Positions 1 to 32,565 of a stretch of DNA of 52,503 bases are shown piece after piece (positions within the stretch are counted from its first letter, which is position 1; each line of letters opens with the position of its first letter). Both the position numbers and the translations under genes were made by a program. Source of the stretch: Fragilaria crotonensis (lineage: Eukaryota > Bacillariophyta > Fragilariophyceae > Fragilariales > Fragilariaceae); the NCBI GenBank assembly GCA_022925895.1, contig JAKSYS010000439.1:1-52503 (forward strand), in the 5' to 3' direction. The notes beneath the pieces are model-generated. The model was not told where the DNA came from, ran no database searches, and saw nothing but the letters and a program-made list of their open reading frames with translations.

Positions 1-789
1 CAAAATACACGTACGTCACAGCGCACGCAAAAATTACATGTAATGCAAACGTACTTAGACCAGCACTGATATGTGGTACATTGACGTACCATATACTGCG
101 CAAGCATGGTGTGACGTGCAGTACAAATGCACAACAGCGTGAACGTCGACGTGACAGAAAGTATCGCCATTCGCCATACTACAGCGTACAGTGTGACCAA
201 CGGCTCGCACAGCGTTGTGTGTATGCATACAATTCTAACTACGTACCGGTACGTAATACGTACACTATCATCGTAGTGAACAAAGCAATACAGCAATACA
301 GCATGCACAATGCAGTGTGCTCTACAGGTACATACTACACTGAACATGAACAATGCTAGTACCGCCGTACCTGCTAGTACAAGAACACGGTACAAGTGTA
401 CTAGTACTGTTCTTCACTGTGACTAATGTACTATACTTCTTAGGCACTCGAACCAGCATTCCTTGAACGACTAAAAAAATTCAAATGCAGACACTATCAT
501 TTTTTTGGATACATAACGGAAATGCATTTACATACCACTTTGTAGTATGATACGAATAGAAATGTAATCAGTACGAATAAAATATGAATTACAAGTACAA
601 CCAGCCTTTGTGATGTATGTACAAATTGTTAAGCACTAGTAATGTATATACAATATATTGAAATTTGGTTGTGGATGTGTTTGAAAACATGGCGCAGCAA
701 CACAAATTAAATAAGGAGCACGAGCACATGTAGGAGAGCATTACAAAATCACTTTGTGCAACACGGAATCACACACCCGAGTGAGAATC
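1..789. other. AT-rich intergenic DNA, dense in GTAC
   Basis: No gene is supported here. The first 435 bases contain roughly 17 copies of the tetranucleotide GTAC by eye, where one or two are expected by chance. They include a perfect 16-bp palindrome at 240-255 centred on ACCGGT. A 92-codon open stretch at 81-359 has the amino-acid make-up of translated simple sequence (many Tyr, Thr, Val, Cys) and is not accepted as a gene. The last 100 bases before 790 would contain the promoter and leader of the next gene, but no clear TATA box was identified. Confidence 0.6.
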
Positions 790-2483
790 ATGGCAGGGAG
801 GAAGAGGAGATCACGTGAAGACAATGAAGGAAATGAAGAGAACGTGGACCCGAATGAGGATAGGAGGGACAAGAGGCAAGAATGGCAAGAGAAACAAGGA
901 GGTCAGGTAGGCACAGCACAAGGAAGAAATGAACGAGAGCCAAATGCACCAAATCAAGACCAGGTAGATCATTCGAGAAGCCAATCTCCCACTAGAGGTA
1001 GTGGAAATGCAGCTGATCACCACTCTCCATTTAGAGGTGGTCATCATGCTCGGCACCACTCTCCATCTAGTAGAGGTGGTAATGAAGGCTCTCACCAACA
1101 TCAACAAGGAATACAAGAGAGACAGCGGAACCAGCAAAATCAAGGACGGACTGATGACTCAAGAAGCCAATCTCCCACTGGAGCTAGTGGTAACGCAACT
1201 GATCACCACTCTCCATTTAGAGGTGGTCTTCATGATCGGCACCGCTCTCCATCTAGAGGTGGCAACCCAGGATCTCGACAATATCGAAACAATCCTCATG
1301 ATTGGCATCGACATAATTGTCAACCTGATCATCGCTCTCCATTTAGAGGTAATGATCAGGTGCAGGATGACACTCCATTTAGAGGTCGTCCTGCTGACAG
1401 ATTGTGGCAACGTCAACGTGCGCATGAATCCCACCGTTGTCATCCGCGGGAAGGTGGTAACGCCAGATCTCGAGGACGATGGAGTCGGAGGGATGAGGCT
1501 TCTTTGTCTGGAAGTGAATCCAGTTATGATTCAGGATATTCCTTGACTGACGATGACGGTCCTCTGTCTCGTCGATCAAGAGGACAAACTGGTGAGGATA
1601 ATATCCGAAAAAAGGCTATGTCATACAGAACTGCCCATGATAGTCAAAAGAAGCACATCGTTGATAGAATTCAAGTCGTTGTAAAGGGAATGATATTCAG
1701 GAAGATGAAGTTCATTACGAGTGAGGCAATGTTCAATAGAGCAATGAAGATTGTTCTTGAAACTGAAGAACCAGATGACGAGGACGAATTTGTGAGGATA
1801 TACAAGACATGTGTTGTTGGCAGCATCAATGGCAAGAGAAGTACCTGTGAGCAGGCAGGTGGGAGGATTGTCAAGGAACTACTTCGTCAACTTGATTACG
1901 CCAACGCAGATGATCTTAACCCACCATACTCAATGCAGACACTTGAAAAATTGAGGCAAGGAGAACATGAACTTGACAAGAAAGCATTTCAGTGGTTTAT
2001 TGGGAGTTTCTGGCATGTGTGTCGGAAAGAAAGTTTGGGAGGAAAAAGTACTATTACAGGGTATCTGAAGCTGTTGTGGACAAGGGAAGTCAAGAACTTG
2101 TGGTAACAGTGTCTGATGAGGCTTTTGCTCTCCTCCTTTACGAGAATTACATTGAAAAATGGATAACACGGTATCACACAGAACGCCGTGGCGAGAAGGC
2201 TGATACGAAGATCACGGGCAAATACACATCATCGGTAATGGATCACTGCCTGTATGGAGGGTGGAGTGCGGAGGGAGTTGCGAGATTCAATGAATTGTCG
2301 ATGCTTGTAGATAGGGACAGAAAGAGTGCTAATGCAAAGAAAGCTGAAGAAGAAGTGCTCCTTGCATTGAGGAGACAAAAATTTGGAGATCGCGTGGACA
2401 ATGACATTCTGAGAGACCCCGAGGAAGAAGGAGGGAGACGGCGTGTAATGCCTGAAGCAGTAGAGGCGTTTTGTGAATTGTAA
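790..2483 (+). CDS. Unknown family protein A: Arg/Ser-rich N-terminus plus conserved C-terminal domain (two frames)
   Basis: Function unknown. The ATG at 790 opens about 438 codons in one frame. Residues 1-190 are basic and low complexity, with recurring SPFRG and RSQSPT motifs of the kind seen in disordered RS-like RNA- or chromatin-associated regions. A folded-looking part follows (about 270-430), rich in charged and hydrophobic residues. The frame stops at 2104-2106, but the adjacent frame (1992-2483) carries the continuation: a SDEAF-x-LL motif, then KYTSS, then GWSAEG-x2-RFNEL-x3-V-x2-DR. These motifs recur in the gene at 4983-6424, so the second frame is genuine coding sequence. Either one frameshift lies near the A-run at 2042-2046, or a 41-nt GT-AG intron (2019-2059) joins the frames. 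The alignment with gene B slightly favours a frameshift, because residues on both sides of the would-be intron seem to align. Whether it is a live gene, a pseudogene or a mobile-element ORF is open. Confidence 0.5.
967..1269 (+). repeat. Internal duplication in the Arg/Ser-rich region of gene A
   Basis: Two in-frame units starting at 967 and 1153 (offset 186 bp, 62 codons) each encode D-[HD]-SRSQSPT, then GN-A-x-DHHSPFRGG, then H-x-RH-x-SPS. About 117-120 bp of each unit align closely. The distal parts of the units have diverged. Further SPFRG/TPFRG motifs continue to about 1390. Confidence 0.75.
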
Positions 2484-2925
2484 TTGTAACAAGAACAATG
2501 AAATGCTCACGATATAGAATTTTGTCATTATAGGGACACATTGCACAGAGACGCACTACTGGGAGTACATCGGTACAATCAGATGGTGTGTTGTACGGTG
2601 AATGTGACAGATGGAATACAAAGAAGAGAGTGTAACATAGATATCACATGATCAAAGATGTGACACACTGTACAGTCAGTGTGACAAGGCTGTACTATAA
2701 TCGAAAAACATTAGTCCTTTGTACCATTTTGTGGTACGCAATTAGTAGGGAGTACTATTTTGTTCAGGTGTACCAAAATTGATACACAAAAACCATGGTA
2801 CAAATCTGTACCGGACTCAAAAAAATATTTTACAGTTACCACCATATGGTAGGTGTACAACCCGGAACCCTCTGAGGAATTGTATGATCTCAATCAGGCG
2901 TTACAAACTTCAATGACGCCCATGG
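2484..2925. other. Intergenic, no gene seen
   Basis: AT-rich with several GTAC-containing stretches (2560-2830). No supported reading frame. A 60-codon minus-strand stretch at 2711-2893 is treated as chance. Confidence 0.5.
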
Positions 2926-3342
2926 CTTGAACGGTCCTTTGCTGAACAAAGGACTACTGCACCACCAAGTAATGTGGGCTTTACCAGTAAGGCACGACGT
3001 GTAGGCACACTACTCTTTCAAGCAAGATCCTCGCAGGTGACTGATGTCCACACAAAAACTCGGGCTGGTGCAGCAACAGAGAGAAGCAAGGAATGACAGG
3101 AACAATAATTGCGTCCTTGCAACAATTGTGGCCAAACAGCACAACGCCCTCCAAATCAATCAACAACAATGTATCAGACGTCCAATTTCTTGAACGGTCC
3201 TTTGCTGAACAAAAGGACTACTGCACCAACCAAGTAATGTGGGCTTTACCAGTAAGGCACGACGTGTAGGCACACTACTCTTCGAGCAAGATCCTCGCAG
3301 GTGACTGATGTCCACACACAAAACTTGAGCTGATGCAGCAAC
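2926..3342. repeat. Direct repeat, two ~153-bp copies 263 bp apart
   Basis: 2926-3077 and 3189-3342 are near-identical. Both run from CTTGAACGGTCCTTTGCTGA to GATGCAGCAAC/GGTGCAGCAAC, with a few single-base indels and substitutions. The 111-bp spacer (3078-3188) is unique. No reading frame spans the unit. It may be a decayed tandem duplication or paired termini of a non-autonomous element, but no flanking target-site duplication was found. Confidence 0.8.
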
Positions 3343-4982
3343 TGAACAATATTATCAATCAATTGCGATGACAATGCTTGCCTGGTGAAGTTGATGAATG
3401 TAAAACTGACAAAACAGATCAAAATTGGAGTGAGTAATTTACTTATTTCGATTGTGATGCAGCAAAGCAGTTCAGTTTTGGTGGCAAAACAGCAAGATCT
3501 TGATCAGTGGAGCAAGTACGGTGAAAAGAGTACCTACTGTCGAAGGAAAAGCGCAGGTTACAGTGCTCCTACCACCCTGCAGTAGAAGCCACGTGAGTTT
3601 GGCGCGTACTACCAGTAAGCATTCACTGTACAAAAACAACAGTCCTGGTACAACGATGCCGTAGAAAATACGTGGATGTAGAGTTTTTGTACATCCGGGT
3701 TACCCTGCGGCAACACACCAAAATTCCCTGATCTCATCCATTCAAAAAGAACAACAACCTTGTTATCTTCAAAGCCAAAACTCTCACAGATTCATCTCAT
3801 GACATAAGAGGATGGGATGTTACTTACAGAAACGAATTTGGTGAAGAATTGAGAAAAGAGTGAATGGAAGAGTGTCAGTTCACTTGAGGATCTGACACTG
3901 GATGGAGTTGTGTACCAAAAATGAGTTCGACGCATAACGGTCGTTTAACGTCTTTTTAACATTGATTTAACGGATTAAGTCCCGAGAAGGTTGATGCCAC
4001 CTTCACACAAACGCAGGTTTTGTGGTGCATTAACTAGCAAGGTCCGCAGTGGGTCGATGCCGGCAACAAGCAGCAGAATCAAATTGGATGGCAACGTATA
4101 TTCAAAGGCACGCCTACAAGACGAGTATTACCATCGACATCGTAAGCACACCAAATATCGATGCACCGGAACACAATTGCAGAAAAAAAGGTAGATACAG
4201 TGATATAAACGCAGTGGCAACAACGATGGCAAATGCGGAATGAGGATGTTTAAGGCCATTTTCTACGCGCAAAAAAAGCAATAGAACAACGAGCAATCAC
4301 ACAAAAGCTAATAATTATATACAACAACCGTCAACATATGGAACGACGGGTACAGCAATTTTACATACCATCGTGATGAAGTGATGACGCATCTGCAGAG
4401 GCCCACATGAGTCACACTAAATTGGTTAACAATAAACACGTCTTGATCACGCATTAGCGAAAACGAAAGCAATCAAGGTAAGGCGTAAGAACAATACAGT
4501 CGTATTCCAGTCCGGTCCAAGTACCTGCTGAAGTATAGTACGTAAGAACTCAAAAAAGAAGTGCAAACGTTTGAATCGGGTGGGTCGCGTATCCTTTACG
4601 TTAGATACAGCGGCAGTACGTTTATCAAATTTTTAGTTTTGTAATAGCAGGGTACCAGTTAACAATGCTATTAATTTATTACTGACATTTTTAATGCGGG
4701 AAACAATGTTTAAAAATAAAGTATGCGCGGCAGGTTTGATTTTCAAATGAATCGTAGTAAGTAGTATTTTTTGTTTTAAATTTAACAAGTGTTTCGTGTT
4801 ACATTTATACATGCAACGAACCACATGTTGGCACCCATTATTTTTCTTCATGAAGCTCAATGATCAACGTTTGAATAAGTTTGCATTAATCGTGGAATGA
4901 CGAAGACGTATAGCACGCTGAACAAAAATGAGTTCATAAAACACAAAGTTCAAAATACAAACATTTGACTGATTTGTTTCAG
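3343..4982. other. Intergenic, AT-rich, no clear gene
   Basis: Short open stretches (3385-3585, 3991-4243, 4633-4860) have biased composition and no recognisable domain. The last 20 bases before 4983 (pyrimidine-rich, ending TTTCAG) look like a 3' splice site. An upstream exon of gene B may therefore lie somewhere here, but I could not identify it. Confidence 0.4.
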
Positions 4983-6424
4983 ATGAACGGAATGCATCAT
5001 CGCGGTCAACTTGACCCATCATCCGTTTTGGATGATGAACTTCCTTCGATACTTACAAAAAACATGTTGTATATGTCGGGACGAAAACATTGCGCAGTTG
5101 CCGATGCCGTGCAAAGTGATCAAAACGTATATCATCAACCACAGCAGCAAGTAACGCCAATCATGAGTGGTTATTCTCCCATGCCAGCAATGCTAGAAGG
5201 CAGAGTATTAGAGCGTGCGTCAATGCCTGAAAATATTGCAATTGTTCCTCCACATCTTGTACCGCTTAACATGCAGCTTCAAAACACAATTGCATCGCAA
5301 CGCATGATGGTGAAGAGTGTGTTAAAACAAAGTTGTTCAGTCGTCTCAAGTTTTTCAAAAGACTTGCATGGTTTATATGATTTACGACGTGGCACGGTTT
5401 GTTCGATGATTGTTGCTAATTGCAATGTGGCGAAAGAAGACGTCGATGAATACTGGTGGGCAGACATGCGTAAACTTGTTGTTTGTTCTCACACAGATCG
5501 TCGCAACAATGTCATCAAAAACATGCGCTTAAGATTCAGAGGTAAGTGAAATGATATTAATTGCTCGAGTGCAAGCAAATGACTAACGTTTGTTTTATTG
5601 TCACAAATCAGATGGCATGTGTGGTAAGATTCCGCACTTCAAAGTTAACAATGGTCAGAATGCCGATATGGACTACATGTTAGCAATGCGAGACAATTTG
5701 GTTCATTATGTGCATTTAATTGATATCTATGCGCCTTGCATTGTTGGACACAGTAATTGGAATGACAAGGCTAACATGATGAGTTATTGTCGTTCAGATT
5801 CTGGGGTTTTCAATGAGTATGTGTTTTTGCTAAGCGACGAAGCTTTCATGCTTCTTGTTTTACTTAATTACACAGCGACATGGATGTCTGAATTGGCATT
5901 GGAACAATCAAAGGTATGACGATACAGTGCAATGTTTTGAATTTGTTTGATTGCCGTGCTGACACATTGCTAAAAATATGGCCGATACATTGTTACAGAT
6001 TCAAGCACATGTTAATGCTGTTGCTGTTCCGGTCCCCGCTATCGTGGTAAGTTTTGGTTTGTTGCGTGACAGTAACGCAAGCATGCAACAAAACTAACAC
6101 TTGTTGTAATGTTAGGCACCAAAATATACATTGTCACGAAAATAACGCAACGATACTAATGGTGTAGCTGGAATTGGATGGACTGAAGATGGCATGAATA
6201 AGTTTAATGATCTCTACGATTCAGTGAAAGAAGACAGGATTTCGCATGGAGTGATGTTTAATAATCAATTGCTGAATGTGTTTTTGGAGCGCCAACGTGT
6301 TGTGAAACCAAATCCGCAACGTGCAAACAACCGTAAGCGCAAAGCGATGCCACGAGATGATATGGGATGTATTGACACCGTGCTGTGCACAAATGAAAAT
6401 CCAGACGGCATTGTGCCTTTATAA
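4983..6424 (+). pseudogene. Unknown family protein B: multi-exon homologue of gene A with one in-frame stop
   Basis: Function unknown; same family as gene A. Four exons can be read directly: 4983-5541, 5612-5913, 5999-6046 and 6116-6424. The introns (5542-5611, 5914-5998, 6047-6115; 70, 85 and 69 nt) have GTAAGT or GTATGA donors, CAG or TAG acceptors, and GACTAAC or AACTAAC branch-like sites in the first and third. Frame is kept across all three junctions. The product has SDEAF-x-LL (exon 2), KYTLS and GWTEDG-x2-KFNDL-x3-V-x2-DR (exon 4), matching gene A motif for motif. Exon 4 carries one in-frame TAA at 6143-6145, between KYTLS and GWTEDG. Everything after it stays in frame to the terminal TAA at 6422. 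The TTTCAG just before 4983 suggests a further upstream exon. It is either a recent pseudogene by one nonsense change or an error at that base. Confidence 0.6.
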
Positions 6425-6931
6425 TGTGATTAGTTTAATATTGATTAAGATGCAGATATTTACCACACACCAACTCATAAATGGACAGTACAATACAACA
6501 TAATCAGGCGGTGCTAAGTAAAGCAATATGAAATGCAAAATTAAAGATTAACTAGAGACGAAAGATCAGGAATACGCCTGATTAGATTACGTTGTTTCGT
6601 GAGAAGAAACCCAGGATTCCGTATTCTAAATTTTACCGGAATCTATCAATTAGAACTCGGGTGTATCAAAGAGTATTTTGTTGGATTCCGAATTCTGAAC
6701 TTCGGAACATGTGCATACAAAAGTACGGAATACGAAAAAAAAACTAGTACGTGAACAATAATGTGGCATTATTTTGTACGGATCTATGCATAATTTAATT
6801 CGTATAAATCCAAACAAAAAATAGGGATATGTGACACGAATTCAGGTCTTGCTTTTTAGATGTGGTACTGTATTCCTAATAATAATTGTGCAGTGTTCAT
6901 CAAGATTAATTTATACTACATAGTGGGTTCC
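6425..6931. other. Intergenic, AT-rich
   Basis: Strongly AT-rich with repeated GGAATAC/GGATTCCG-like words (6570-6730). No coding signal. It is probably the 3' flank of gene B, up to the LINE insertion site at 6932. Confidence 0.5.
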
Positions 6932-6949
6932 TCACAACTGATTGGAGTA
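6932..6949. repeat. TSD of LINE fragment, 3' side
   Basis: Matches 10189-10206 at 17 of 18 positions; it defines the insertion boundary of the minus-strand LINE fragment. Confidence 0.8.
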
Positions 6950-7080
6950 AAAAAACTCGAGATCTATTTAACGTGCTGCCGCTAAGCCCATGACAGGAGG
7001 CAATCGACTCGCATGGGTGGGCACTACACTGGGGTGTATAGTAGCCACCAGTACAAACACAGATATTCTGGGTGCTTGCG

Positions 7081-8600
7081 TCAACCGTGACGGAAGTATT
7101 CCCGAATAGAACGCATGCCTTGTAATGCTCGCTGTTTGACTCTCCTGTAACTCTCTTGGAAAATAGATCGGTTCACCGATAACCAATTCTTAGTGACACT
7201 GAGTGCTTGCTGATCGTGGTCGCTTGCATCTCGATGCAGTAACCGTTGAACTTGTGTCTCGTACATACTGCGATGTCGATAGATGTTATCCAATTGGTAT
7301 CGAACTTCTCGTCTTGTCGCCTCTGCTCGCGTCCTCTCGTCGTGACCATGAACCTCTTGGTTGCGTGTTTTCCAAAGTGTGTACCAACGTTGCCAGCAAA
7401 ACTGGATTATGCTGGCCTGCCACGTTAAACACATCCGGCTTAAGTCTTCAGTTGCGCTATGGTAATATGCGAGGTATCGTTGTTGGTGCACACACCACTC
7501 GTTGCAAAATCTCCCCATAAACAACTGGTCCCATCCGATGTGGCTTTGGTGGCGTAGAAGAGATTGCAGAGACGGATGACATGACTCGGATGCTATCATC
7601 GAGTCGTCGACGGCCAAAGAGATAAACCACTGGCGTAGACCAGCTAGCATCAAGGCACTTAACCGAGGAGACGTATTGGTTTCTATATGAAGGTCGCGCA
7701 TTGCTGACAAGAACTCGTTTCGCCAACGTTCGCGAGTTGGGTGCTCGCAGCGAAGGATGTGAGCGAAATCTTCTTGAATCGAGCCGCACAATGGGCACGT
7801 TCGGGAGCCGCCATCAAACTTGTTCGCTTGGGCATGGGTGGGTAACATACGATGAAGAAGCTTGACCAAATGGGTATGTGGAACGGTAGTCTTCTTGATG
7901 GCCAGTGCATGTGCATCCCATTGAATGGAGTTGAGGGTTGATGCGTCCCATCCTTGCCTGCGTTGGATATAATCAAGTAATGGTTTGGTGGTAGCTTCGT
8001 ACAGCAACACTTCAGAATACCGACTAGTGACGGTCCCGTCTGGGAGATGTAAATGGGCTCGTGCATGAGGGGACATAAGCACGTTCCCCCGATATGCACC
8101 AAATTCATGATTATATATACCAGCCTGAGTGTCGGCGTCCACGTTGAGTTGACCCATGAGATCCAGGGAGTGGTACGGGGTCGTTTCATCTTGATGGCCT
8201 TTGACGTATTGAAGAGTAACGCGAGGCAAAAATGCCGATTGAATTTCGATAAGAATGTCCCAATCTGGTCAAAGGCAATCCAGAATAACTTCTCTCGGTC
8301 CAAGTCAATCGCAACTTCTTGCTCTTGAGGATCGCGATCACCCTCTTCTTGTAATGTGTCGAGAACTCCTTGACTTGGTGGCCAGCACTCCTCTCCAGGG
8401 TTCATGCATGTATGTGAATTCCTTGATCCGAAGTAAGAATCTAAGGAAGGAAAGCATGCCGTATGCTTCTGCTCTGTAGGATTTTGGTGATCGTCCTCTG
8501 GCGGGGCCCATGCCTGTGGCAAGTCTCTCTCCTCGCAAAGTACTGATGACCCACCCCAAAGACCCGTGTCGCTTTAACTTCACGGATCCATCGCTGACAG
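7081..8600 (-). pseudogene. LINE ORF2 C-terminus: RNase H and zinc-knuckle domains, frameshifted
   Basis: On the minus strand the RNase H domain begins near 8600 with a D-G-S core, followed by YRAEAYGML (second acidic residue). The third acidic region is reached only after a frame change (DTLQEEGD). It resumes in another frame with VTLQYVKGHQD and QLNVDAD, the usual C-terminal RNase H motifs. The 7081-8229 frame then runs 383 codons to a stop at 7081, with a CPLC-x8-H-x3-C zinc knuckle about one third of the way along. Each segment aligns with the plus-strand LINE at 51.7-52.4 kb. At least two frameshifts make it non-functional. Confidence 0.75.
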
Positions 8601-8601
8601 C

Positions 8602-9124
8602 TCAACAGCCAGGCGTTAAATCCAAGCATAGTGTAAATGGGTTGACGTGGAGAGTGACATCACTCAGGAGTTCAGCCTCCCATGGTTCGAGAGTGCTAAC
8701 GAACAATTCGAACGTGGCCGTGGCCGACGTGGGGATGACCGGTGTCCGAATAGTCTGTGATGGAATGCCATGGAGTTTCCAGTATCCACCCTCCTCCGCG
8801 CTGACTTCTGCAGATCGCGCCTGTTCTGGCAATTGGACATATGTCCGTGATGTCACAGAGGATGATGGACGAAATCTGTCATAACCGACGTGACGATGTA
8901 CTGCGTAAGTGTTATCTGCGGTGAGTATGAATAAGGAGCTTCTGTGAATATACGCGAAGGATTGAAACCTTCGTTTGGAAAGGGGCTGCGTCCACGCTCC
9001 CAAGGCTCTGAATAATTGTCCTGTCTCATCACTCCAGAGGCGGTTGGCCGACTGCCATAACTTCCATTCGGTGTCTGACGGTCGATCTTGATGCACGGTA
9101 TGCCATCGTGTGCGCGAGCTCATC
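8602..9124 (-). pseudogene. LINE ORF2 middle segment, downstream of nested insertion
   Basis: Encodes RWHTVHQD, EWKLWQSANRLW and later STLEPWEAELLSDVTLHV. These match RWHSIHQE, EWRLWRKANKLW and SLEPWETDLL of the plus-strand LINE (51.28-51.73 kb). The coding sequence continues across the nested element to 9998-10145 (LLGRPSL|MSSRTRWH), showing that the interruption is a later insertion. Confidence 0.75.
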
Positions 9125-9140
9125 AATGATGGTCGCCCTA
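9125..9140. repeat. TSD of nested element (other copy at 9982-9997)
   Basis: Sixteen identical bases on both sides of the nested element; the perfect match suggests a younger insertion than the host LINE fragment. Confidence 0.85.
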
Positions 9141-9981
9141 AAAAAAACCGAATATCTATTTTACGTGCTGCCGCTGTTCCGGATGACGACGGAACTCGAC
9201 TCACACGGATGACCGCTACCCTGGGGTACAGTAGAGGCCACAATAATTGTTTTGTGTTACTGCAATACTGTTGTACTGCAATTGTGCCAAATAATGCTGC
9301 ATGGAGTCGTTGTATCATAGGGAGGGTGACTGAAGTGCGGGAAAAACCTTGGATCATTGAACTTAGTTGCCGTAGGTTTAGTAGTCGCAGTGTACGTCGG
9401 TAGCATGTAGAGCACCACCATATGGTGCGTAGCGGTATACTCGGAGGATCGGTCACTCCAACTTTCGTTCGGAATTTGGTAGCGGTGTGTTCGGTCATTT
9501 GGAACGCCAAAGGGCGCAAAGCGGAAAGGGGTTGGGTCATGGAACTGGGTGGAGTCACCCCAAGAATAGTCATATCGGATTTCGTCACAGTACTTTGGTC
9601 AGCAGTGAAATAGGTCACGGTGCTGGTATGGATACCATCAATCGGTCGGAGGTCCTTCGTCTCTGATGGTGTTGAATCAAGCAAAATTTGGGGGATAGAC
9701 AGCGTAGAAACAATACCGGTTTCTACATGAGGAAAAAATCGATCACGTCGCACATCTGATGGTACCTCAAACGCTGCAACCGCTCCATACGCGTTGATGC
9801 CAATTGCACCACAATCATTCTCAAGCATATTGGTGTTGATACTTGTAGACGAGAGGTCGGGGGAAGGCTGTAGTGCCATCCGTTGACTTGACTTTGTTGT
9901 GCTCTAAGTTGCGTAGAAAACGTACCAGAACTCACGTAGAAACAACCACTTACTTGGCAAAAACTCCTCGGAAAAAATTCT
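9141..9981 (-). mobile_element. Non-autonomous element with LINE-like 3' tail, nested in LINE fragment
   Basis: An 841-bp insertion flanked by a perfect 16-bp duplication AATGATGGTCGCCCTA (9125-9140 and 9982-9997). Removing it and one copy of the duplication restores the LINE reading frame. Its sense-strand 3' end (about 9152-9240 in plus coordinates) is similar to the 3' end of the host LINE (6964-7050): both share a ~21-nt block ending ACGTGCTGCCGCT and a CTGGGGT block, then end in ATAGAT-x-TCG plus a run of 7-8 Ts. The rest shows no similarity to LINE coding sequence. It fits a SINE-like or deletion-derived element mobilised by the LINE machinery through the shared 3' tail. No tRNA-like head was identified. 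Confidence 0.65.
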
Positions 9982-9997
9982 AATGATGGTCGCCCTA

Positions 9998-10145
9998 GTA
10001 GCATACACGGGTCAAGTTCTTGTCCGTTCGGCTTCGTTATGTCCGATAGTGTTACAGCCTGCAGATACAGGCGACAATAATTCAGTTTTCGAATCTCTGT
10101 CGGTGTGAATCGGTCTGAGTGGACAATTGCGTCCATAAGATACAT
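9998..10145 (-). pseudogene. LINE ORF2 fragment at the 5'-truncation point
   Basis: Encodes IRKLNYCRLYLQAVTLSDIT and then LLGRPSL, aligning with IKKINYCRLYLRAVTVSDLT and GEPSL of the plus-strand LINE at about 51.15-51.27 kb. It is the most N-terminal part of this truncated copy. Confidence 0.75.
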
Positions 10146-10206
10146 GTCATTCTCTCTTTGCGGTTGCGGAACACACGAGTCGTCAAGATCACAACTGATC
10201 GGAGTA

Positions 10207-11247
10207 CTTGTAGTATGATACCCAGATATACAGATAGATACCTCTGTTTTTTCGAATGTACGCTATTCCAGTCCGTACAGCTGGTTTCGTCATCAGGTAA
10301 CCTAACGTAAATCTTGGTAATATATGCACGTATTATGTTTTTAGCCTAAGTATTATCGCTTCCTACTTTGGAGTACTCAAAAAAATTAACACGAGAATAT
10401 CATGCGTAAATCATGGTGCAATCAGCGGGTCAACGAAGCCCATGCTGTTGTAAACTCACAACATGCCCTATGTTATTGCCTTGTGCACTGCCTTGAGGAT
10501 TGAGCAACATGAGTGATGTTGTCAGTTTCAACATCCCAACCCCACAATTTGAGATCATTAGGAGTGCCTTCATGTTACTTTTTGCTCGTATTTCCTGTAT
10601 GGATTGGGAACGTGGTTGCGAGGCGCATTCGACGGAATGAGATCGTACTGTAGTACTCGATGTACAGTGTACGGAAAACCCACTCATTCTACCGTTGGGT
10701 CCGAGAATTTATTCAAATATTTGCTGACGTCTACTATAGAGATTATTGAACGTCTGTAGAAATATTACTACGTTCTTAGCGATGCCATTTGTTTATGAAA
10801 CCAGCTGTACAGTACAATACCCGAGGCAGAAGTGTCACATGTTGTTCTACAGTATGCAGTACAATGGTACAAGTACCTACGTAAGCTACTACTTGATGTA
10901 AGGTACAGCGTGCCAGTACCACCAGAGTTGTCATGCTCCAGTATTGCAGGTCATCGCACGGTACTGAGTATGTTTTACAGTAGAGCATTTGTCACGGAAC
11001 CGGTGCACAGCAAATTCAATGAGTACAGTATTCCATTCAGTAACTTTGAATTCGTACAGTATTGTACTTCAGTAACGTAAGACACTGTCGTTTCAACATA
11101 ATTACCGTCGATTAATGTACTGTAGACCTGTAATACATGTAATCCACGTAACAGTACAACAGTACCCCAGAGTGGTCATACTCCGTAACAGACAGACACA
11201 CACACACACGCACGCACGAACAAAGCAAATTTAAAAAGGAGTAGGAT
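10207..11247. other. Intergenic, GTAC-dense
   Basis: No supported gene. From 10801 to 11170 I count about 14 GTAC tetranucleotides in 370 bases (about 1.4 expected). A CA/CG microsatellite lies at 11195-11218. Confidence 0.55.
11195..11218. repeat. (CA)n/(CACG)n microsatellite
   Basis: Alternating CA repeats grading into CGCACG repeats, upstream of the first LRR gene block. Confidence 0.8.
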
Positions 11248-13325
11248 ATTGAGAACTACGAGGATGTCAGTTGTGAGTTGTGAGACAAGTATACACCAGC
11301 ATCCAGCACACGTTTGAGAACGCAAACAGTTGCTATTCTGGAGCTCATCAATGCTGTATTGACTCTTCGTCTCGCGTGCACGGACGATTCGAGAATACGA
11401 GTGGTTCATTATTTTGCATATTATCTTGTAGGAGTGCAATCGGTAGTCTGTCGGAATTGATCTGATTCGACGGTCTGGGAGACCAATCGCATCAACGCTT
11501 CAACTCACATGGACTATCTTTCATTCCAGTAATATATAAATCTTGTTTCCGATGGAGAATAGTGGCAGTGCCGATGACGTTGCGAAGGATGCTGCACGTG
11601 ATGGAATCCAGGAGCATGAGCTTGCTGAGGAATTATCATCAGATTTGCCAAGTACGGCCACGCCGTCATCGGCACCTTTTGCTTCCCCACCCTACGCTTC
11701 CTTATCGTCGCCATCCGCAGCAAAGGTTGATGATCGTGAGATTGCTGATGGTGCTGGACGTGTCGGTGATACCAAGAACTTGGAACATGCACTACCGACT
11801 GACCCAAGAATGCAATTACCCGCCGGGTTAGGAATGGTAGACTCGATGGGAAGGCCTCCGGTTGTTTATGCAAGCAACGACGGTGTTGGTCCCGGAGCCT
11901 TTCCCGTAGTACCGTCATTTCGCAACACTGCAACAAGTCGGATCGTCAGGTCTCCCATTGGTTCGTATGATTCCCCGAGAGAATTTATCGATGAAGAGTC
12001 CGATCAGGGAGATGGAGTGCCAAACTCTGCAGCCGTTGGAAGCGCTTTGTACACTGTGGAAGCCCAACGGGTACCAGATGGAAATGAGGATGGAACGGTA
12101 TTGGTTGCGGAGGCACAATACGTCAGAACGAAATGGTATCAACGTCGATGGATTGTTGTGGGGAGTATCTTGTGTGCATGCGGTCTTGTTATTGTGGTGG
12201 TCGTCATACTTGTCTTTCGACCCTCAACCGCAGCAACTAGCAGTTCGTCCTTGACGTCACCCACCCCGGCACCGACTGTCTTGACGCCGGAGCTTATTGC
12301 CTGCGCATTTCTTTTCATTCTTGACGCGACGGAGTGTCGATCGACATTCGAATTTAACAACAGAACGACTGGTTCCGCAATTCCCAGTGAGATTGGACTC
12401 TTGACGCAGTTGACGTATTTGGATTTCTCCAATAATCTGTTGATTTCCACCATTCCCAGCGAGATCGGACTCTTGACAAAGTTGACGGTGTTGGATTTCT
12501 CCGGCAATTCGTTGACTTCCACCATTCCCAGTGAGATGGGACTCTTGACACAGTTGACGTTTTTGGATATCTCAAGCAATTCGTTGACATCCACAATTCC
12601 TAGTGAGATTGGACTCTTGACACAGTTGACGTTGTTGTCGTTCAACTACAATTCGTTGACATCCACCATTTCCAGTGAGATGGGACTCTTGACACAGTTG
12701 ACGTATTTGGATATCTCAAGCAATGCATTGACTTCCACAATTCCCAGTGAGATCGGACTCTTGACAACGTTGACGTGGGTGGATCTTTCCGTCAATCAGT
12801 TTACTTCTACAATTCCCAGTGAGATTGGACTCTTGACAAAGTTGACGTGGTTGGATTTCGAAAGCAATTCGTTGACGTCCACAATTCCGAGGGAGATTGG
12901 CCTTTTGACACTATTGGAGTATTTGAATTTCTCCAACCATACATTGACTGGGACAATTCCGTCATCCCTCTGCTCACTCCCTTCTCTCGTCCCGTATATC
13001 GTTATCGACTGTGGTGAAATCACATGTGCGTCAGGTTGTTGCTCGGGTTGGGATGCTGATACTCATTCATCCTTTTCCTGTGGCTAAAGTGAAAGAATGA
13101 ATGGATGAACGCAGCAAGGAAAAAGGCATATTCGAGTTTGACGTTTGAGGGTTCGGCGGAAGCAAGGAATGGTGGGATCAGTCGGACGGATTTTGGCGGC
13201 GGATGGTTTGATGGCGTGTGATGGGATTCGTGTTCTTGTGTGGAGAGTTGGGAGAGAGTGCAGAATGTGATCGATGGGTACTGGGTACTGAATATTATGT
13301 ACAGTACGCCGAGGACAAGTCCTCT
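11248..13325 (+). repeat. Duplicated LRR-gene block, copy 1
   Basis: Similarity to the block at 25295-27505 starts at ATTGAGAACTACGAGG about 300 bp upstream of the LRR gene. It continues through the gene into the 3' flank, to about GACAAGTCC. The copies are about 14 kb apart in the same orientation, a tandem duplication later expanded by insertions between them. Confidence 0.85.
11552..13087 (+). CDS. Type II membrane leucine-rich-repeat protein, copy 1
   Basis: A 511-residue protein starting at the ATG at 11552; the frame is open a little further upstream but only with non-ATG codons. Residues 1-199 are Ser/Pro/acidic and probably cytoplasmic. A basic stretch (RTKWYQRR) precedes one transmembrane helix (about 200-222), so with no signal peptide an N-in/C-out type II topology is predicted. 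A Ser/Thr/Pro stalk (TSPTPAPT) leads to eight 24-residue LRRs of the plant-like type (IPSEIGLLTQLT-x-LDFS-x-N-x-LTST), then a C-terminal cap IPSSLCSLPS and a Cys cluster (CGEITCASGCC). Such proteins are common in diatoms; surface recognition or adhesion is a family-level guess with no partner known. It is a single exon, with codons intact. The paralogue is at 25573-27246. Confidence 0.85.
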   Translation: MENSGSADDVAKDAARDGIQEHELAEELSSDLPSTATPSSAPFASPPYASLSSPSAAKVDDREIADGAGRVGDTKNLEHALPTDPRMQLPAGLGMVDSMGRPPVVYASNDGVGPGAFPVVPSFRNTATSRIVRSPIGSYDSPREFIDEESDQGDGVPNSAAVGSALYTVEAQRVPDGNEDGTVLVAEAQYVRTKWYQRRWIVVGSILCACGLVIVVVVILVFRPSTAATSSSSLTSPTPAPTVLTPELIACAFLFILDATECRSTFEFNNRTTGSAIPSEIGLLTQLTYLDFSNNLLISTIPSEIGLLTKLTVLDFSGNSLTSTIPSEMGLLTQLTFLDISSNSLTSTIPSEIGLLTQLTLLSFNYNSLTSTISSEMGLLTQLTYLDISSNALTSTIPSEIGLLTTLTWVDLSVNQFTSTIPSEIGLLTKLTWLDFESNSLTSTIPREIGLLTLLEYLNFSNHTLTGTIPSSLCSLPSLVPYIVIDCGEITCASGCCSGWDADTHSSFSCG

Positions 13326-14778: not shown

Positions 14779-17030
14779 TCACTTCATCCGACAGCGACAA
14801 TAATGAATGCTGGCTTTGAAGTTATCTTTCCCTTTCTTTTTGTTGAGCGAGAGGCTTCTAAAGGTACCCTTTGCCTGGCCCCAGAGGTATTCAATACCCT
14901 CGCCCGCAAGCTCTGCGTGACACGTCGGTGTCAAGATGACTTTGACTCCAAGACAATTTGCGATATGTTGCAACATTCCCTCCTCATTGAGGAAGTCATG
15001 ACACATTCCCATGATGTGTCTCAAGCTGGCACTAGTGTCAAGAATTCCTAATTCATCTTTTTCCCAGTAAGTGAATACTGCTTCAAGTTTCCGCCATCAA
15101 TCAGCCCTTGCTCCCAAAGGACCTGCACTAACCCTTTTGCTTTTCCCTCCCAACCTTCTTTGATTTTTTCAACGATCTTGTTCGTTTCGATGTTGTGCTG
15201 CATACGTATTTCCACCAGCTCTCTTTTGTTCCTGCCTTTTGTATTAATACCCCTGCCTCTCAGTTCGAGCTCCAACTCACAACGGTTCCTCTCGATTGCA
15301 TTCACAACTGTTTTGAAAGTTGGAATTCCATGCTTGGCGCAAAGCTCCTTCAGTTGTCTTGTGGTTTTCCCTTGTGTTTGTGTAATGCCATTGTCATTTA
15401 GCAAAAGTATCAACTCTTGCGACTTCAGGTTGACGTCAGTTGCAGTTCCGCATCGTTTGTCATGTCGTGTTTCTTCTCTCTCTTGCTCGGTCATCCAGAA
15501 CGGACCAGAGTCCGATTGAGAAAACACGAGAGACTGAGTGGCTCCCGGTTCCAGTATTCGAGGAAACGCTCCAAGGTATCCCTCCTCCTGTTCGATGATT
15601 GTATTTCTCATCGCTCCTACATTCTTTCCTCCAAACAATCGGTTCATTCTGTTTTGATTTAAACCGTCGGGTCGTTGTTTCGAATGCCCAGAACTGTGGT
15701 CAAACAAAAATACAAAGTCAACAGCTGGATGCATCTCCTTTAAGTCATCGACGGCATCCTCAAACTGCAGGACCGTGTTGTTGTATGTCCAATAACCTTC
15801 GCGATTCTCACCGTATTCAAAGAATACAAGAAACGGGGACTTGTCGTGAGTGAGTGGGCTTTTGTTTGCACTTCCAAGAATCTTGATGGCTGCTTCTCGG
15901 TCGGCATACTGCTTCCCTTGGCGTTGAAAATTGACTTCATCCAACACCTGTTCACTAATCCTTCTCACGAGGCCATGCTCGCGACAAATAAATGCCGATA
16001 TCATTGTTCCGATTCCTTCATCCTTGGGTAGTAGCGGGCGCTCGCCGGTTGGACCAACCCACATCATCGAATGGAATAGAAACTGTTTAAAAATAGCTTC
16101 ATCTTGTCCCACAAACATAACGACATTAGTTCCGATAGGCTTTCTGACACTGAGGTTGCCTCCGAGTGGGAGCAGATGTAGTTGCTCATCAAAAAACGCA
16201 CCAGTCGAACTATCGATGTGATACTCAACCATCGCAACACCGTCATCTGTCACATAATTGAATCCACAATTGATTGCGAGATTTTTGATGCCTCAAGTTC
16301 TATCAACTTCTCCAAAGTTATTTGAAGCCATCTGTGTGCTCGTATCTCAAGATCAAGGTATCGTTTCGTAAAAACAGGACGGTATGCGATCGTCTCTGGT
16401 CTTTGATGACCGTCGACAAAATAATGCTTCTCCCGGTTTTTGTATTTAAAGCCACAAGCGTGCATCCACCTTGCTACCGTAGTCACACAAAGCTTTGATA
16501 GACCATATGCCTGTAAAAATGCATCCCTAGTTGTAGTCGGCGTTACTACCTTGTCCACTGTTGTAACTCCTACAACACCATCGTTTTGGTTGCAGCCGCC
16601 ATCATCATCAAACAAGCATGCGTTCTCGTGACGACGCTTCACCATCAACCTTGGAATCAGATTGTTGTGGACGTAATCAAACATCAGCTCAACACTGAGA
16701 TCCTTGAGGTGAGCCACGCCGTGCCTCTTGAATGCATCCATGGCATCGGGATTGTCTCGGAAGAAAGGTGGGTATGCAGTCTTTGGCTCCGGTGCACTGT
16801 AGAAAAAATGCCTGTTTCGAGCCAACTTCCTGTGCCAATGTGCAAGGGTTGCGAAACTGGAATAGAATTCTATTCCAACATCATTCATTGCCCTAATGGC
16901 ATATATCAAGCAGGATTTCCAACTCCATTGCGTTTGCATGTTGCCAGTCACGTTCGCCACAAATTGTTTCAGTGCGAGAGCCAAATACATACTCCGAAAT
17001 CGCAAAGAGAAAACATCGCCTTTGGAATAG
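14779..17030 (-). pseudogene. DDE transposase, catalytic part (C-terminal portion of a gene split by copia 1)
   Basis: Minus-strand coding in three frames: 17030-16250, 16253-15048 and 15077-14779. Visible segments in order are a helical DNA-binding-like region ending in GYGLSK-like and ARWMHACGFKYKNREKHYFVDGHQRPETIAYR; a first catalytic Asp candidate in MFVGQDEAIF; a second in FLFDHSSGHSK; and a Glu in GIEYLWGQAKG. This order matches large eukaryotic DDE transposase-like proteins known from fungi and protists. Between the second Asp and the Glu sits an extra ~90-residue segment with two SAP-like helix-extended-helix repeats (SQELILLLNDNGI and LRGRGINTKGRNKRELVEI). Frameshifts near 16255 and 15075 break the frame. 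The N-terminal part lies at 24098-24839; the frames join exactly across the copia insertion. Confidence 0.7.
17026..17030. repeat. TSD AATAG of copia element 1, left copy
   Basis: Same five bases at 24098-24102 directly after the 3' LTR. Five bp is the usual target duplication for Ty1/copia integrases. Confidence 0.8.
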
Positions 17031-17394
17031 TGTCACTGCATTACATATCACACTACATATCTGTAACGTCCGAGCATACTATGCTGCATTGTACTAGCGA
17101 CAACAACAGTATTAAAGTGCCGACAGTTGGTTAGCTAGCCTCATCTGCATCTTTGCCGGTCGCCGACGATCGTAAGGGTACTGAGGCTCCAGGCTTCTAT
17201 ATAGACAACAAGAGCGACGATACTAGCGACATACTCCGAGACAAGAGAGATCCGACCGAACGGTATTGCAGTTCCATCCGATTACACCATCATGGTTTCA
17301 CCCGTTTTGTCTTGTGAATCCTTGTGACTCGCACGAACTCACGACACGTTGCTACTCCCATGTGCGAATCGCGCTCGCTAGTTCTGTTGTGGCA
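17031..17394 (+). repeat. 5' LTR of copia element 1
   Basis: Starts TGTCACTGCATTACATATCA and ends GTTGTGGCA. Similar to 23702-24097 apart from indels. Confidence 0.85.
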
Positions 17395-17407
17395 GGTTAT
17401 GAGCCCA
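17395..17407 (+). promoter_or_regulatory. Primer-binding site, Met-tRNA anticodon type
   Basis: GGTTATGAGCCCA directly follows the 5' LTR. Its complement, TGGGCTCATAACC, has the form of a methionine (CAU anticodon) tRNA anticodon stem-loop rather than a tRNA 3' end. This points to priming by an internal tRNA fragment, as described for Drosophila copia. The identical 13-mer follows the 5' LTR of copia element 2. Confidence 0.7.
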
Positions 17408-17466
17408 ATTACAACGAGTACTAATCCTAGTGGCTGATCAAGTTATCCTTAAGGGAAATAATCAGC

Positions 17467-20400
17467 ATGTTGGTCTTTGAGGAGTCAAATCACGAAGACG
17501 ACTTCGTTATTCTCACGGTAGTAGACATCGACGATTGTCCAATTGCTGAATTACCGCTCACAGAGATATACGACGTGACCACGTCTCTCCTCAAGGACGA
17601 CTATCTCGACACTCTGCGCAAATACATAACGCAACAACTCGAAGATACCACATGGCTTGAGGACCAATCGGTATCGCCCCTATTCGACGCTGGATTCGCA
17701 ACCTTCCATCGCCGCGCGAACGGAGACATCCTATCTCTCCGGAAACCCGCACTCCTACGTGTAATCAGACAGACTTTGCGTGGCCGCCCAAACGCGTTGG
17801 AACCCGTATCGATCCCCATCCTCATACGATTCATGGTACCAGAGTCTGGTCTCCCAAACCGGGAACATCGATCGACCACGGTACCATCTATGGTTGGCGG
17901 ACGAGTCGAGAGTACAAGTGGAAATGAGTCAGCGGTCGGATTATCAGAGACCCGCTCTCAGGGAGTGACGGATACCGTCGCACCTCAAGTCCGCGCCGCC
18001 ACGGATCTACAATTCGGAGGATCTCTTGCGCCTCTTCTTGATGATCCCATTGACGTCAACGTTGAAAATCCGACACCGGCACCCGCCGCTGGGACACACT
18101 TCAGAGGATTGCCAGTACAACTAGCGCCTGACGACTCTCAAGACAGTAACAATCGTCGTGAACCTCAGCGTCGACATGTTTGTGTGCATGACGATTCCCC
18201 GGAACAACGCACGTTGTTTCAAGATCGCAACACCGGTACACCTCGAACACATACGACGAATCTATCCGGTCGTACTGCAACATCTGCAACGACCATCCTC
18301 CGTTATGGATCAGAATCGTTTGAGGAGTACATGCAACAATTCATGTCGTTACGTTATAAAGACTTCAGGAAAGCGGCATTCCAGCGTTTTGATTCCAGTT
18401 GCCAAGACTCTTTCATACACTGGTATAAACTGTTTTGTGCTACTTGTTTGCAATGGGGAATCTGGTGCCCTCCTTACGAGTCGGTACAAGAAGACAATGT
18501 GCATGGTTCTTGGTGGACCCTCCTCCCAGCAGCATCGGTGCGAAACCAAGAAGCATTCATGTCATCGCTCCTCTATGTTGTCTTATCGGCCGAGACGGTA
18601 TTCCCGAACGGTAGCCGTGAGCACAGTGCGATACAAGGATGTTCTGCCAACGCGGGATATGATGCCATTTACTCCCTTCTCCGTCTTCACCACCCACGCC
18701 TACAATCGGTCATCTATACCGTCACCGAAATACCCCGGCAACGACGTTCAGAGACTTTCAGTGTCTATCTCCGTCGCTTGCACGACTTTTTGGCACGGGA
18801 GCGCATAGCTGGTCGAAATTATACCGAGACCGAAGCTTTGGATTTGAGCGTGCGCAACTTGAGTACCGAATGGCGTTCTGAGTTGCGCCACCTCGTCGAA
18901 CGTGATCGCCGCACCGGTCGTCACGAAGGTGTTTTGCCGTTCCATCTATCCATGTCGCAACTTGCCACATCCTTCATGCAATATGCGACTGAGATCGGAC
19001 GTGATGTGACAACATCTTCTACCCCATCAAACGCGCGTGATCGGTTCCCCAATTCTACACCAACTATTCGTCGCATCGAAACCGTCCCCCCTAAGGACGA
19101 ATTCCTCCACGGTACCGACATCACGTTGGGTGATAATGAGATCAACCTCCTCGTACATGCCATGTCTACGAATCAGGCGAACTCTGCGGTCTGTCTGGGA
19201 TGCCAGCAACCCGGCCATACTCTGACAGACTGTAATCGATTCGTCGACTACATCGTGGCCGAGAGTTTGGCACAACGTCATCCTCAATTGCGTGCCCAGG
19301 TTGCGTCGGCGCACTCCCAATTCCGCAGTCGCATCAATAACGGTCGCGATGCGCGCCCACGTCCCAGCGCCGTTCGTAGTCTGACCTCATCGTTGGATCA
19401 TGACAAAGTCCCTATCGACCCCGTTGATAGTAATGTTCTCACGCTTGCCGAACAGGAACACGATGACCTCGGGTATCCACATGGCTACCAAGTTAACGCT
19501 GTCCGTGGTTCACGTATTGATCTTGATAACGATGATTTTGAGGTCTGCTTCTCTGACGCCGACATACGTACGTGTTTCATCCCCTCTCTGCAGTCCCCGA
19601 TGTTTGATTCCGTCAACGCACCGTCCCTCCAACTCGATAATCTCTCCCTCGAGAACGCACCGGTTGACCATGACGATTTCCTTCTCCGACGCTTGGTCGG
19701 CACGTATGATTCCGAGGCCCGTGCCGTTTATGCACACGCCGACAGTGGCTCCATGGCGTGTACCACCAGTGATGCTACTTTGCTCTACGCATACCGCCCC
19801 CTCTTACCACATCAAACACGTATCCGTCTCTTTGATGCTGGTAGTCACCTGCATCACCCCAGCGGAGTCGGGTATCTCCGCGTCCCTGCTTATCGTTTGC
19901 CATCTCAGCCGCCCATGACGTCATCGGATGCAGTCGTGCCAACACCATGCTGCCTGTTCGTTCGCACCTATCACACCGAGACGATCCCTGGAGTGATCAT
20001 CAGTCACTGTGCGATCGCGAAACAACTGGCCGCTGTGAGCTACAGCATGACGAGTTTGGATAACGACACCGGTTTCATTCGCTTCCCGCACCGAAACCCT
20101 ACGGCCCTCACATTCGATACGTTCGTTCATCTGCAACCCACACATCTCCGCGGTGGATTGACATTTACACCTGCGTTGTATATCCCAACCACCGCCGAAC
20201 AATCGGCAGCTCTTCCACGTTCCGCCGATCGCTACGTTGCGAGTGCCATCTCCACCACGTCCCTTGCTCCGTTGTCCCTCACGTTCCCCACACCTGTTGC
20301 TTCCCTGTCTCTGCTTCATTCTCTGGATCGATACCCCGAGTTCTCTTCCGTCACCCACGATCTCCTTGTCGGCAGCCTCAGCCGTCCCGCCCTCACTTTG

Positions 20401-22332
20401 CTATGGCATCAACGTCTCGGTCACCTCAACTTCCGACGACTGTCCGAGCTTCATCGTCATACTCGCGGCCTGCCAGCGCTTCCCATGCCCGATATCACCG
20501 ACAATTGCGCCGTTTGTCTTGCTGCCAAACTCCGCAAAGCTCCTCGTGGCTCTATATCCATCATGGTTGCAATGCACTGCCTCCAAGGGCTCTCTATTGA
20601 CTTCGCGTTCATGGTTCAGAAGAGTTCCGACTCTGTACGCTTCGATACCCTCGTGGGCCTCAATGGTGAAACATGCTACGTTCTGCTCACTGATCACTTC
20701 AGTGGGCGTATCTATGGTCGCGCTTTCGCAACCAAAGCTCCACCTGTTGATTGGATAAACCGCTGGCTCGCCAATAATACCCCGGATTGTCTCGGCAAAT
20801 ATGTTCGCATGGACGGTGGTGGTGAACTCGGCAAATGCCACGAGATTCGAGAGACGTTCGCAAATTTTGGATACCAAGTTCAGCTCACTGGTCCGGATTC
20901 CTCTCACCAGAATGGCCCAGGAGAGCGCCCCCATCAAACTATTGGGAACGCACTTCGCGCTATGTTATCTGGCGCGGCTCTACGTCCTGCTTTCTGGCCA
21001 TATGCGTTTTATCACTATGTCCGCTTGTACAACTTTGTACCCCGCGGCTCACGTCCTTCCAGTCCCCATGAGATGTGCGGTGGTGAACTCCCCGATTTAT
21101 CCAAACTTCGTACGTTCGGATGCCGTGTTCATGTACGCCCTACCACAGCTCGCTATGGTCGTGTTGTTCCCAATTCGCGCCTCGGTATTTTTCTGGGATA
21201 CTCCCGTACTCTGAAAGTCCTCTACAATTATGACTTGCACAGTGCCGTTGTCAAAACTGCCACTCATGCGCGTTTTGATGAAGTTATGAATGACCTTCAT
21301 ACCGATGCCCCGCCGGATGTCCTCGCACTCCGCCATCTCTCTCTCGACGGTTCCATTCCCGCCGAGCGTCCTGTTTTGTCCCCTTTGAATCTCGAGGTCA
21401 GCGATGATCCCTTCAATCGGTTGGACACCCTCACTCAACTCATTAAATGTGACCATCCCTCCCTTGGCTTTGACATCACGGCATGTCACATCCGCAAACG
21501 CGGATATGTCTCCGGCATCGTCGCCAGTTCTACGCCGGCGGCTCGCATTCGCAACGTCCGTCGCAAATATATTGGTGCCTTCATCGTTTCCCTGAATGAT
21601 ACCCCGGTCTTTTCCTGCGACTCGATTGTCACCGCGTTGATGTCCGCGGCCGCCTCCGACGCCCCGTCTGTCACCATCGTGTTTGCTCCCGAACGTTACA
21701 TCCCTGTTCACAATCGCCCACGCGACGACCCGATCCATCTTTCAGTTGACCAGCTGTCCGTCATCCACTCTCTGCGTTCGACCATTCTCGACCCCCCTCT
21801 TCATGTCCCCATCCCAGCAGCACCGGAGCCCGGGTATGCTACCATTCATGAGCCCATGTCACATGACCAGATTCTCATCATGATGCGTTCTCTTAATACT
21901 ACTGTGTTTGGGACCACGGAAGAGCAAGCGCTTGGTGGATTCACTCGTCGTAAACTCAAACGACTCTCCAACTGGAACGACTGGCTCCAAGCGGAATCGA
22001 AACAACTCGACTCCATGGCGAAACAAGAAATGTATGGCTCCCCGGTTCATCCGCCTCCCGGTGCCATCATCCTTCGACAACAAGGAAGGCACGCAACTGT
22101 TGTGACGGATCTCCTCGCGCAGCACCCAAATCGAAACTTGCCAACACATACTCGTCATGCATCGAGCAACCGATTATGCGTCTCTTCTTTGCCCTGTGCG
22201 CCAACGAAGGATATCTCATCATCAAAGTTGACGCTACGAACGCCTACGCCAACTCACCTCCGCCGGACCAACCAACCTTCGTTTATATCGATGAACAATA
22301 CGCCGACTGGTACGCGACAACTTATGGAATAG
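17467..22332 (+). pseudogene. Copia 1 Gag-protease-integrase and start of RT
   Basis: The ATG at 17467 opens one long frame. Seen in order: an acidic Gag N-terminus; a CLGC-x4-H-x4-C zinc knuckle near residue 576; the aspartic protease motif ADSGS near 759; the integrase zinc-binding H-x4-H near 981 with CAVC near 1014; and the integrase core with IDFAF, RMDGGGEL and GPGERPHQ (D, D, E). A C-terminal integrase/linker region follows (FLGYS, then a PDZ-like CDHPSLGFDI stretch). The frame runs off the true path at about 22080: compared with copia 2, about 34 bases encoding the HWNYSIKADGT motif of the RT N-terminus are missing. The last ~80 residues before 22332 are out of frame. Confidence 0.85.
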
Positions 22333-23620
22333 ACATCTCTCGCGACCATGTGCTTCCAGTTCAACACGCACTACAAGGCCACCCGGAATCCGGCTCCTTA
22401 TGGGAACGTTTCCTCAATAAAGTCTTATCCCGACACGGATTCGTTTCAACGACGCATGAACGGAGCATCTACACCGGCAGTTTTGATGGGTTCAAGATGC
22501 TCATTTCGCGACAAGTGGATGATCTTGCCATCGGTTGCCTTAACGCCGATTCCATCCGCAAACTAGTGGCAATCATTTGCTCCGAAGACAAGATTGATCT
22601 CCGCGACGAAGGGGTACTTAGCTCGTTTAACGGTATCGACGTAAAACAGACCCGACAGTACATTCAGATAACGTGTGAATCCTATATTGATAAGTTCCTC
22701 ACACACTACGGATGGTCGTCCGCAGCATCAAACGAATCCAGCGCGAAGCCTATTGAACCTCTCTCGCTCTCGACGATCCCGCAACTCTGTACGCTAATGC
22801 TGACGCGAATACTTTGCAAGAGTTTGAGACCGCCGCCGGATTTGTATATCGAAGCGTTCTCGGAGCTGTTATCTACATCTATGTTGTGGCCCGGATCGAT
22901 ATTGGTTTTGCTGTCACTTTGCTCGCACGATTCTCAGATCACCCAAATAAGATTCATTTCGATTCTCTTCGACATCTCGCTCGGTATCTTTGAATGACGA
23001 AAGATTGGGGTCTCCTATATTGGCGACCGGCTCCTATCCTCTCTTTGCCTATGGGGACTTTTGTCGCTCTGACCTCCGACCCCGATCTACCAAGTTTTCC
23101 GCAACCGCTTTTGCCCACCACTCTCGCCGGATACGTCGATGCAGCCCACGCCACCGATTTGACGACTCGACGATCCATAACTGGTCTTGTGTTCATGCTC
23201 TGTGGCGGACCCATCGCGTACAAATCGAAGGTGCAGTCGACTGTATCCACCAGTTCTACCGAGGCTGATTTTATTGCTGCCGTTCATGCCGCCAAGATTG
23301 CGAAGTATCTCCGTTCTATCTTACATGAACTCGACTACACTCAATCCGGGCCAACAGTTTTATACGAGGACAACGAAGCCGCCATTCTTATGATCAACGC
23401 CAGTCGCCCAACTCCTCGAGCTCGCCACATCAACATTCAGCACTTTGCTATCCAAGAGTGGAAGTCGAATGGCGATATCATCCTTTGCCATATCCCCGGT
23501 ATTATCAACCCCGCGGACGCCCTCACTAAATCTGTGGGGTCAACGCTTCACTATCGCCACGTCCGCCGAATGATGGGACACTATGCCGTGCCCTGGTCCC
23601 TTCACGATGACAACGCCTAA
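22176..23620 (+). pseudogene. Copia 1 reverse transcriptase and RNase H, broken
   Basis: Contains KVDATNAYANSP (RT palm), LQGHPESG, and RQVDDLAIG (the YVDD-equivalent active site). A frameshift at about 22785 follows TIPQL. The correct sequence continues in another frame (YRSVLGAVIYIYVVARIDIGF) until a TGA at 22991-22993, where copia 2 has Arg (RYL-stop-MTKDWG). RNase H follows at 22994-23620 with GYVDAAHATD, SSTEADFIA and YEDNEAAI, and ends in the ADALTK motif typical of copia. One frameshift plus one nonsense codon, in addition to the upstream deletion, make it inactive. Confidence 0.85.
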
Positions 23621-23687
23621 GGTTCTTGTCGATCCTCGATATGTGAATGCACTCCTGTGTACTCATTGTTTGCCTTTGTGGATGCAT

Positions 23688-23701
23688 ACAATGGGGGAGT
23701 G
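23688..23701 (+). promoter_or_regulatory. Polypurine tract of copia 1
   Basis: ACAATGGGGGAGTG abuts the 3' LTR. The identical 14-mer abuts the 3' LTR of copia 2 on the minus strand. Confidence 0.8.
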
Positions 23702-24097
23702 TGTCACTGCATTACATATCACACTACATGTCTGAAACGTCCGAGCATACTATGCTGCGTTGTACTAGCAACAATGACAGTATTAAAGTGCCGGCAGTTG
23801 GTTAGCTAGTCTAATCGGAGTACCTTATGTACTTCACACAACTCCTATTATAGCCTTTATTTGCCTCATCTGCATCTTTGCCGGTCGCCGACAATCGTAA
23901 GGGTACTGAGGCTATGTCGCTAGTAGCGACATACTCCGAGACAAGAGAGATCCGACCGAACGGTATTGCAGTTCCATCCAATTACACCATCGTGGTTTCA
24001 CCCGTTTTGTCTTGTGAATCCTTGTGACTCGCACGAACTCACGACACGTTGCTACTCCCGTGTGCGAATCGCGCTCGCTCTACTTTCTGTCGCGGCA
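23702..24097 (+). repeat. 3' LTR of copia element 1
   Basis: Starts TGTCACTGCATTACATATCA and ends GTCGCGGCA, then AATAG. It contains a segment at about 23815-23865 that is absent from the 5' LTR. Confidence 0.85.
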
Positions 24098-32479: not shown

Positions 32480-32493
32480 CACTCCCCCATTGT
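32480..32493 (-). promoter_or_regulatory. Polypurine tract of copia 2
   Basis: On the minus strand ACAATGGGGGAGTG directly precedes the 3' LTR, identical to copia 1. Confidence 0.8.
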
Positions 32494-32565
32494 ATGCGTC
32501 ATGAAGATAAAAGCGAAACAATGAGTATACAGGAATGCATTCGGGAGAACGGCAACAATTGACAT

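Follow-up and report, generated by a model that had tools for sequence, protein, structure and literature searches.

Two neighbouring, interrupted genes of Fragilaria crotonensis share a diverged C-terminal part within a transposon-dense contig

The stretch of DNA analysed, hereafter the window, is the Fragilaria crotonensis contig JAKSYS010000439.1 (assembly GCA_022925895.1), 52,503 nt in length, and the feature under study lies at positions 790-6424. Two genes, A and B, are found there. A preliminary description of this DNA made them same-strand neighbours about 2.5 kb apart, which agrees with an end of A at 2483 and a start of B at 4983, both on the + strand. Neither gene is intact as assembled. 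The parts of the two genes are as follows, the exons of B being predicted from frame and GT-AG borders.

790..2106, + strand: gene A, first open frame, from the ATG at 790 to a stop ending at 2106; N-terminal repetitive region and the remainder to residue 438
1977..2483, + strand: gene A, second open frame, with SDEAF, KYT, GW and R..MP; in a different frame from the first
2259..2296, + strand: GW block of A, core of the DNA pattern, placed by DNA pattern match
4983..5541, + strand: gene B, predicted exon 1, from the ATG at 4983
5612..5913, + strand: gene B, predicted exon 2, contains SDEAF
5999..6046, + strand: gene B, predicted exon 3
6116..6424, + strand: gene B, predicted exon 4, contains KYT, the in-frame TAA, GW and R..MP
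6143..6145, + strand: in-frame TAA of B, at residue 313 of 405
6176..6213, + strand: GW block of B, core of the DNA pattern, placed by DNA pattern match

The interval between the two genes holds a direct repeat of ~155 bases (2926-3077 and 3189-3342, 94.8% identical), of which blastn finds no other copies in the window.

The C-terminal parts of A and B carry a common series of short motifs: SDEAFALL in A and SDEAFMLL in B; KYTSS in A and KYTLS in B; and the GW motif, GWSAEGVARFNELSMLVDRDR in A and GWTEDGMNKFNDLYDSVKEDR in B. A further shared motif, basic in character, follows GW near both C-termini (RRRVMP in A, RKRKAMP in B). The order SDEAF, KYT, GW reported earlier is borne out in both genes. 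The equal spacing reported with it holds within the GW block, where it is identical, but fails between the blocks, where all distances differ: SDEAF and KYT are 36 residues apart in A vs 45 in B, KYT and GW 13 vs 18, and GW and R..MP 59 vs 52.

Alignment of the C-terminal parts (A to 2480, B to 6424) by BLASTP gives E = 1e-9 and 41.2 bits with 36 of 136 residues identical, or 26% identity over the C-part. The score of the whole C-part was reached by 0 of 1000 shuffles, as were those of the SDEAF block alone (0/1000) and the GW block alone (0/1000). At the DNA level a GW pattern, which was drawn from the same two places that it finds, has just two sites in the window, at 2259 and 6176, and occurs in 0 of 100 shuffles. 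By these comparisons the C-terminal parts of A and B are homologous. That the likeness arose by chance between unrelated proteins is very improbable: although there are two sequences only, and homology upstream of SDEAF is unsupported (in two shuffle tests the score was reached by 61/1000 and 490/1000), the BLASTP value together with the shuffle results, obtained for two blocks independently, already refutes chance for the C-terminal part. A match of the form VG-x3-W-x2-K between B and frame 2 of A is not significant, its semi-global score being reached by 162 of 1000 shuffles, and the same test for frames 1 and 3 of A gives 163 and 162 per 1000. A third copy was not detected in the window by tblastn of five pieces, the next best match having E = 0.12. 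The suggestion of an expanding lineage-specific family goes beyond what is shown here: there are only two copies in the window, both old and both interrupted.

Gene B is read with three GT-AG introns, at 5542-5611, 5914-5998 and 6047-6115, which are 70, 85 and 69 nt long and 33-38% G+C. These introns were picked by reading and then checked for frame, the basis of their assignment being frame plus GT-AG. Spliced in this way B would run through 405 codons in a single frame as far as 6424, were it not for the TAA, which sits between KYT and GW and was overlooked in the preliminary description. Since the frame does not change across this TAA, the stop is most simply explained by a nonsense mutation or an erroneous base.

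Gene A is interrupted in a different manner. Counted from the ATG, its first frame runs for 438 codons without a stop; in a control consisting of 200 block shuffles of window positions 1-7000, forward frames only, the longest stop-free run was 185. The first 270 residues contain 15.6% Arg, 11.9% Gly and 11.5% Ser, confirming the repetitive Arg/Ser-rich region noticed at the outset, and the DNA of this N-terminal region has internal repeats that are 74-90% identical. The motifs of A, however, in a frame open at 1977-2483, are out of frame with the N-terminus (open to 2106), a feature that had also escaped notice. An intron or frameshifts are therefore needed within 1977-2103, where the frames on either side of the change are both open. 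The earlier picture of a conserved core, a variable N-terminus and differing intron content fits these structures, with three introns by frame in B and none or one in A.

The interruptions bear on whether A and B could be intact, expressed host genes, A having one intron within ~1992-2144 and the TAA of B being an assembly base error, a proposal that appears doubtful. As many as 25 GT-AG choices, of 32-128 nt, would keep the frame of A open; codon scores are low in all three frames of A at ~2026-2045; and B is otherwise open across its four exons. However, the donors among the 25 choices include neither GTAAGT nor GTATGA, those of B, and the codon scores, whose training set included parts of A and B and which are not decisive for the choice of frame in A, favour frame 1 to ~1960, frame 2 at ~1966-2010 and frame 3 after ~2050, a sequence of frames whose middle part a single intron does not explain. 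Although the TAA of B could be a base error and the frame change of A could be due to an intron, decay rather than sequencing error is probably the cause.

Searches of the domain libraries are consistent with the initial statement that the family could not be named, as no library tried puts a name on the shared part. None of five pieces from the two genes, and neither of two further pieces, reached a curated Pfam-A cut-off; a DUF4847 match of A (E = 0.0048, 17.2 bits vs a cut-off of 25) was taken for chance. The idea of a BEN-like N-terminal region received no support from Pfam: neither the BEN nor the Myb/SANT models matched five pieces at E up to 1 or two pieces at E up to 10, a result that has to be read with the knowledge that the HMMER filters discard most weak matches. 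SANT/Myb-like domains resemble A and B superficially in the W-[ST]-x-[ED] opening of a possible helix; unlike such domains, A and B are without a Pfam match. The three PHROGs matches have E = 0.14-0.2. NCBIfam listed nothing at E up to 1, and the PDB sequences gave one match at E = 0.98, with none for the A/B profile.

The sequence collections searched for relatives covered viruses, plasmids, bacteria and archaea. The phage and plasmid collections gave no relative of A/B, and five protein or profile scans of IMG/VR confirmed none of the 20, 46, 6, 4 and 44 candidate stretches. The only IMG/VR match of the DNA pattern (L001) was judged by reading to be a phage protein that lacks the remaining motifs. 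Among GTDB contigs the GW pattern extended by V gave 0 matches and a shorter pattern gave 21, all 21 of whose translations look unrelated by eye, without a score. A viral or bacterial origin of A/B was rejected because none of these four sources (IMG/VR, GTDB contigs, phages, plasmids) supplied a relative. A literature search turned up nothing that names an A/B family, which does not establish its absence from print. Words similar to GW-FNEL may occur in other diatom proteins; this is not used here as evidence. As no relative was found outside the window, the family rests on two sequences.

Fold prediction was carried out by single-sequence AlphaFold on two pieces of A, with poor models in both cases: 2022-2480 (mean pLDDT 46.4) is helical from SDEAF onward and 1609-2025 (mean pLDDT 59.9) is mostly helical. 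The MAFFT alignments of B pieces to A were poor and were left out of the predictions. Foldseek with the A-derived models listed 134, 129 and 68 matches at E <= 10, but in none of the three lists did a match reach E <= 0.001; the models being poor, these lists carry little meaning, and they speak neither for nor against a common fold of A and B.

The interpretation that we favour, tentatively and at somewhat less than even odds, is that A and B are old diverged paralogues of an undescribed eukaryotic family, most likely nuclear and nucleic-acid- or chromatin-binding, which are probably decaying in a transposon-dense region. The family would be defined by the C-terminal part with its SDEAF, KYT, GW and basic R..MP motifs. 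This part may be a module for binding or assembly, to which the tail of A, rich in Arg, Gly and Ser, would add RNA or DNA contacts. The basic R..MP motif in both genes, together with the tail of A, suggests a nuclear location and nucleic-acid or chromatin binding, i.e. composition and short basic motifs point this way, with no domain match in support. B, and probably A too, would be decaying copies unless their interruptions are assembly errors.

The surroundings of the two genes are rich in transposons: two elements with terminal repeats are found in the window, plus a transposase gene, an endonuclease gene and an ORF with an RVT_1 match below cut-off. The element at 32012-39314 (- strand) has terminal repeats at 32012-32479 and 38846-39314 that are 98.5% identical, and it is therefore probably young. 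The terminal repeat pieces of the element at ~17030-24079 (+ strand) are 92-98% identical, and an ORF within it (17431-22332) has SH3_retrovirus and gag_pre-integrs domains. The coding parts of the two elements are ~73% identical, and we take both to be Copia-type, which, like the leucine-rich-repeat genes of the window, is in keeping with a diatom.

This setting raises the possibility, close behind the favoured interpretation in our estimate though below even odds, that A and B are what is left of genes from a mobile element not described in the libraries, coding for an accessory DNA-binding or assembly protein. Such an origin would fit the interruption of both genes, the abundance of transposons in the window, the absence of a known domain above cut-off, and two weak inverted pairs placed on either side of A at some distance (41-60/4869-4888, 80%; 423-439/4530-4546, 88%). 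Against it, the 13 inverted repeat pairs of window positions 1-7000, which are short and imperfect, include none that brackets B alone; the flanks of A and those of B have no blastn match to each other at E <= 1e-5; the same strand in 1-7000, read by eye, contains no polymerase, transposase or integrase; and retroelements do not usually have three introns, as B does. It is less likely still that the C-part is an undescribed algal nucleic-acid-binding domain spread, and perhaps encoded, by an unrecognised class of intron-bearing DNA elements.

According to the Seminavis robusta genome paper, a large part of such genomes has no known function, and its lineage-specific families are, like A and B, duplicated genes without known function, a likeness that does not show A and B to be members of them (PMC7335047). 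In Phaeodactylum tricornutum a gene family of unknown nature is close to a CoDi5.3-like element (PMC2806351); the case is likened to A and B by description, not sequence, as an unknown family near a Copia-type element, and it differs in that the P. tricornutum segments are >97% identical vs 26% for A and B over the C-part (PMC2806351). Should intact copies prove widespread, a family missed by current libraries would be defined by the signature, which would also be of use in annotating unknown genes close to transposons. For the present, A and B are a pair of probably decayed paralogues.

A number of other genes and repeats were observed in the window. A DDE_Tnp_4 transposase gene (30775-31560, - strand, E = 8.1e-12) adjoins the young Copia-type element. 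An Exo_endo_phos endonuclease gene lies at 42737-44128 (+ strand), and 4.4 kb from it an ORF at 48504-52112 (+ strand) has an RVT_1 match below cut-off; between them, at 45188-48497, are G+C-rich ORFs with no Pfam match. The arrangement at 42737-52112 is possibly a nested insertion. Downstream of B, at 7081-10262 on the - strand, are overlapping long ORFs, two of which were scanned with no Pfam match. A piece of 38 bases at 10045 has a match at 51162-51199, inside the ORF with the RVT_1 match, so these overlapping ORFs are perhaps a broken relative of that element. Two leucine-rich-repeat genes, at 11304-13323 and 25325-27505, flank the element at 17030-24079 in direct orientation and are 82-88% identical in DNA; the Pfam scan covered the first of them only (11304-13323), and a hydrophobic stretch is seen by eye ahead of the repeats.
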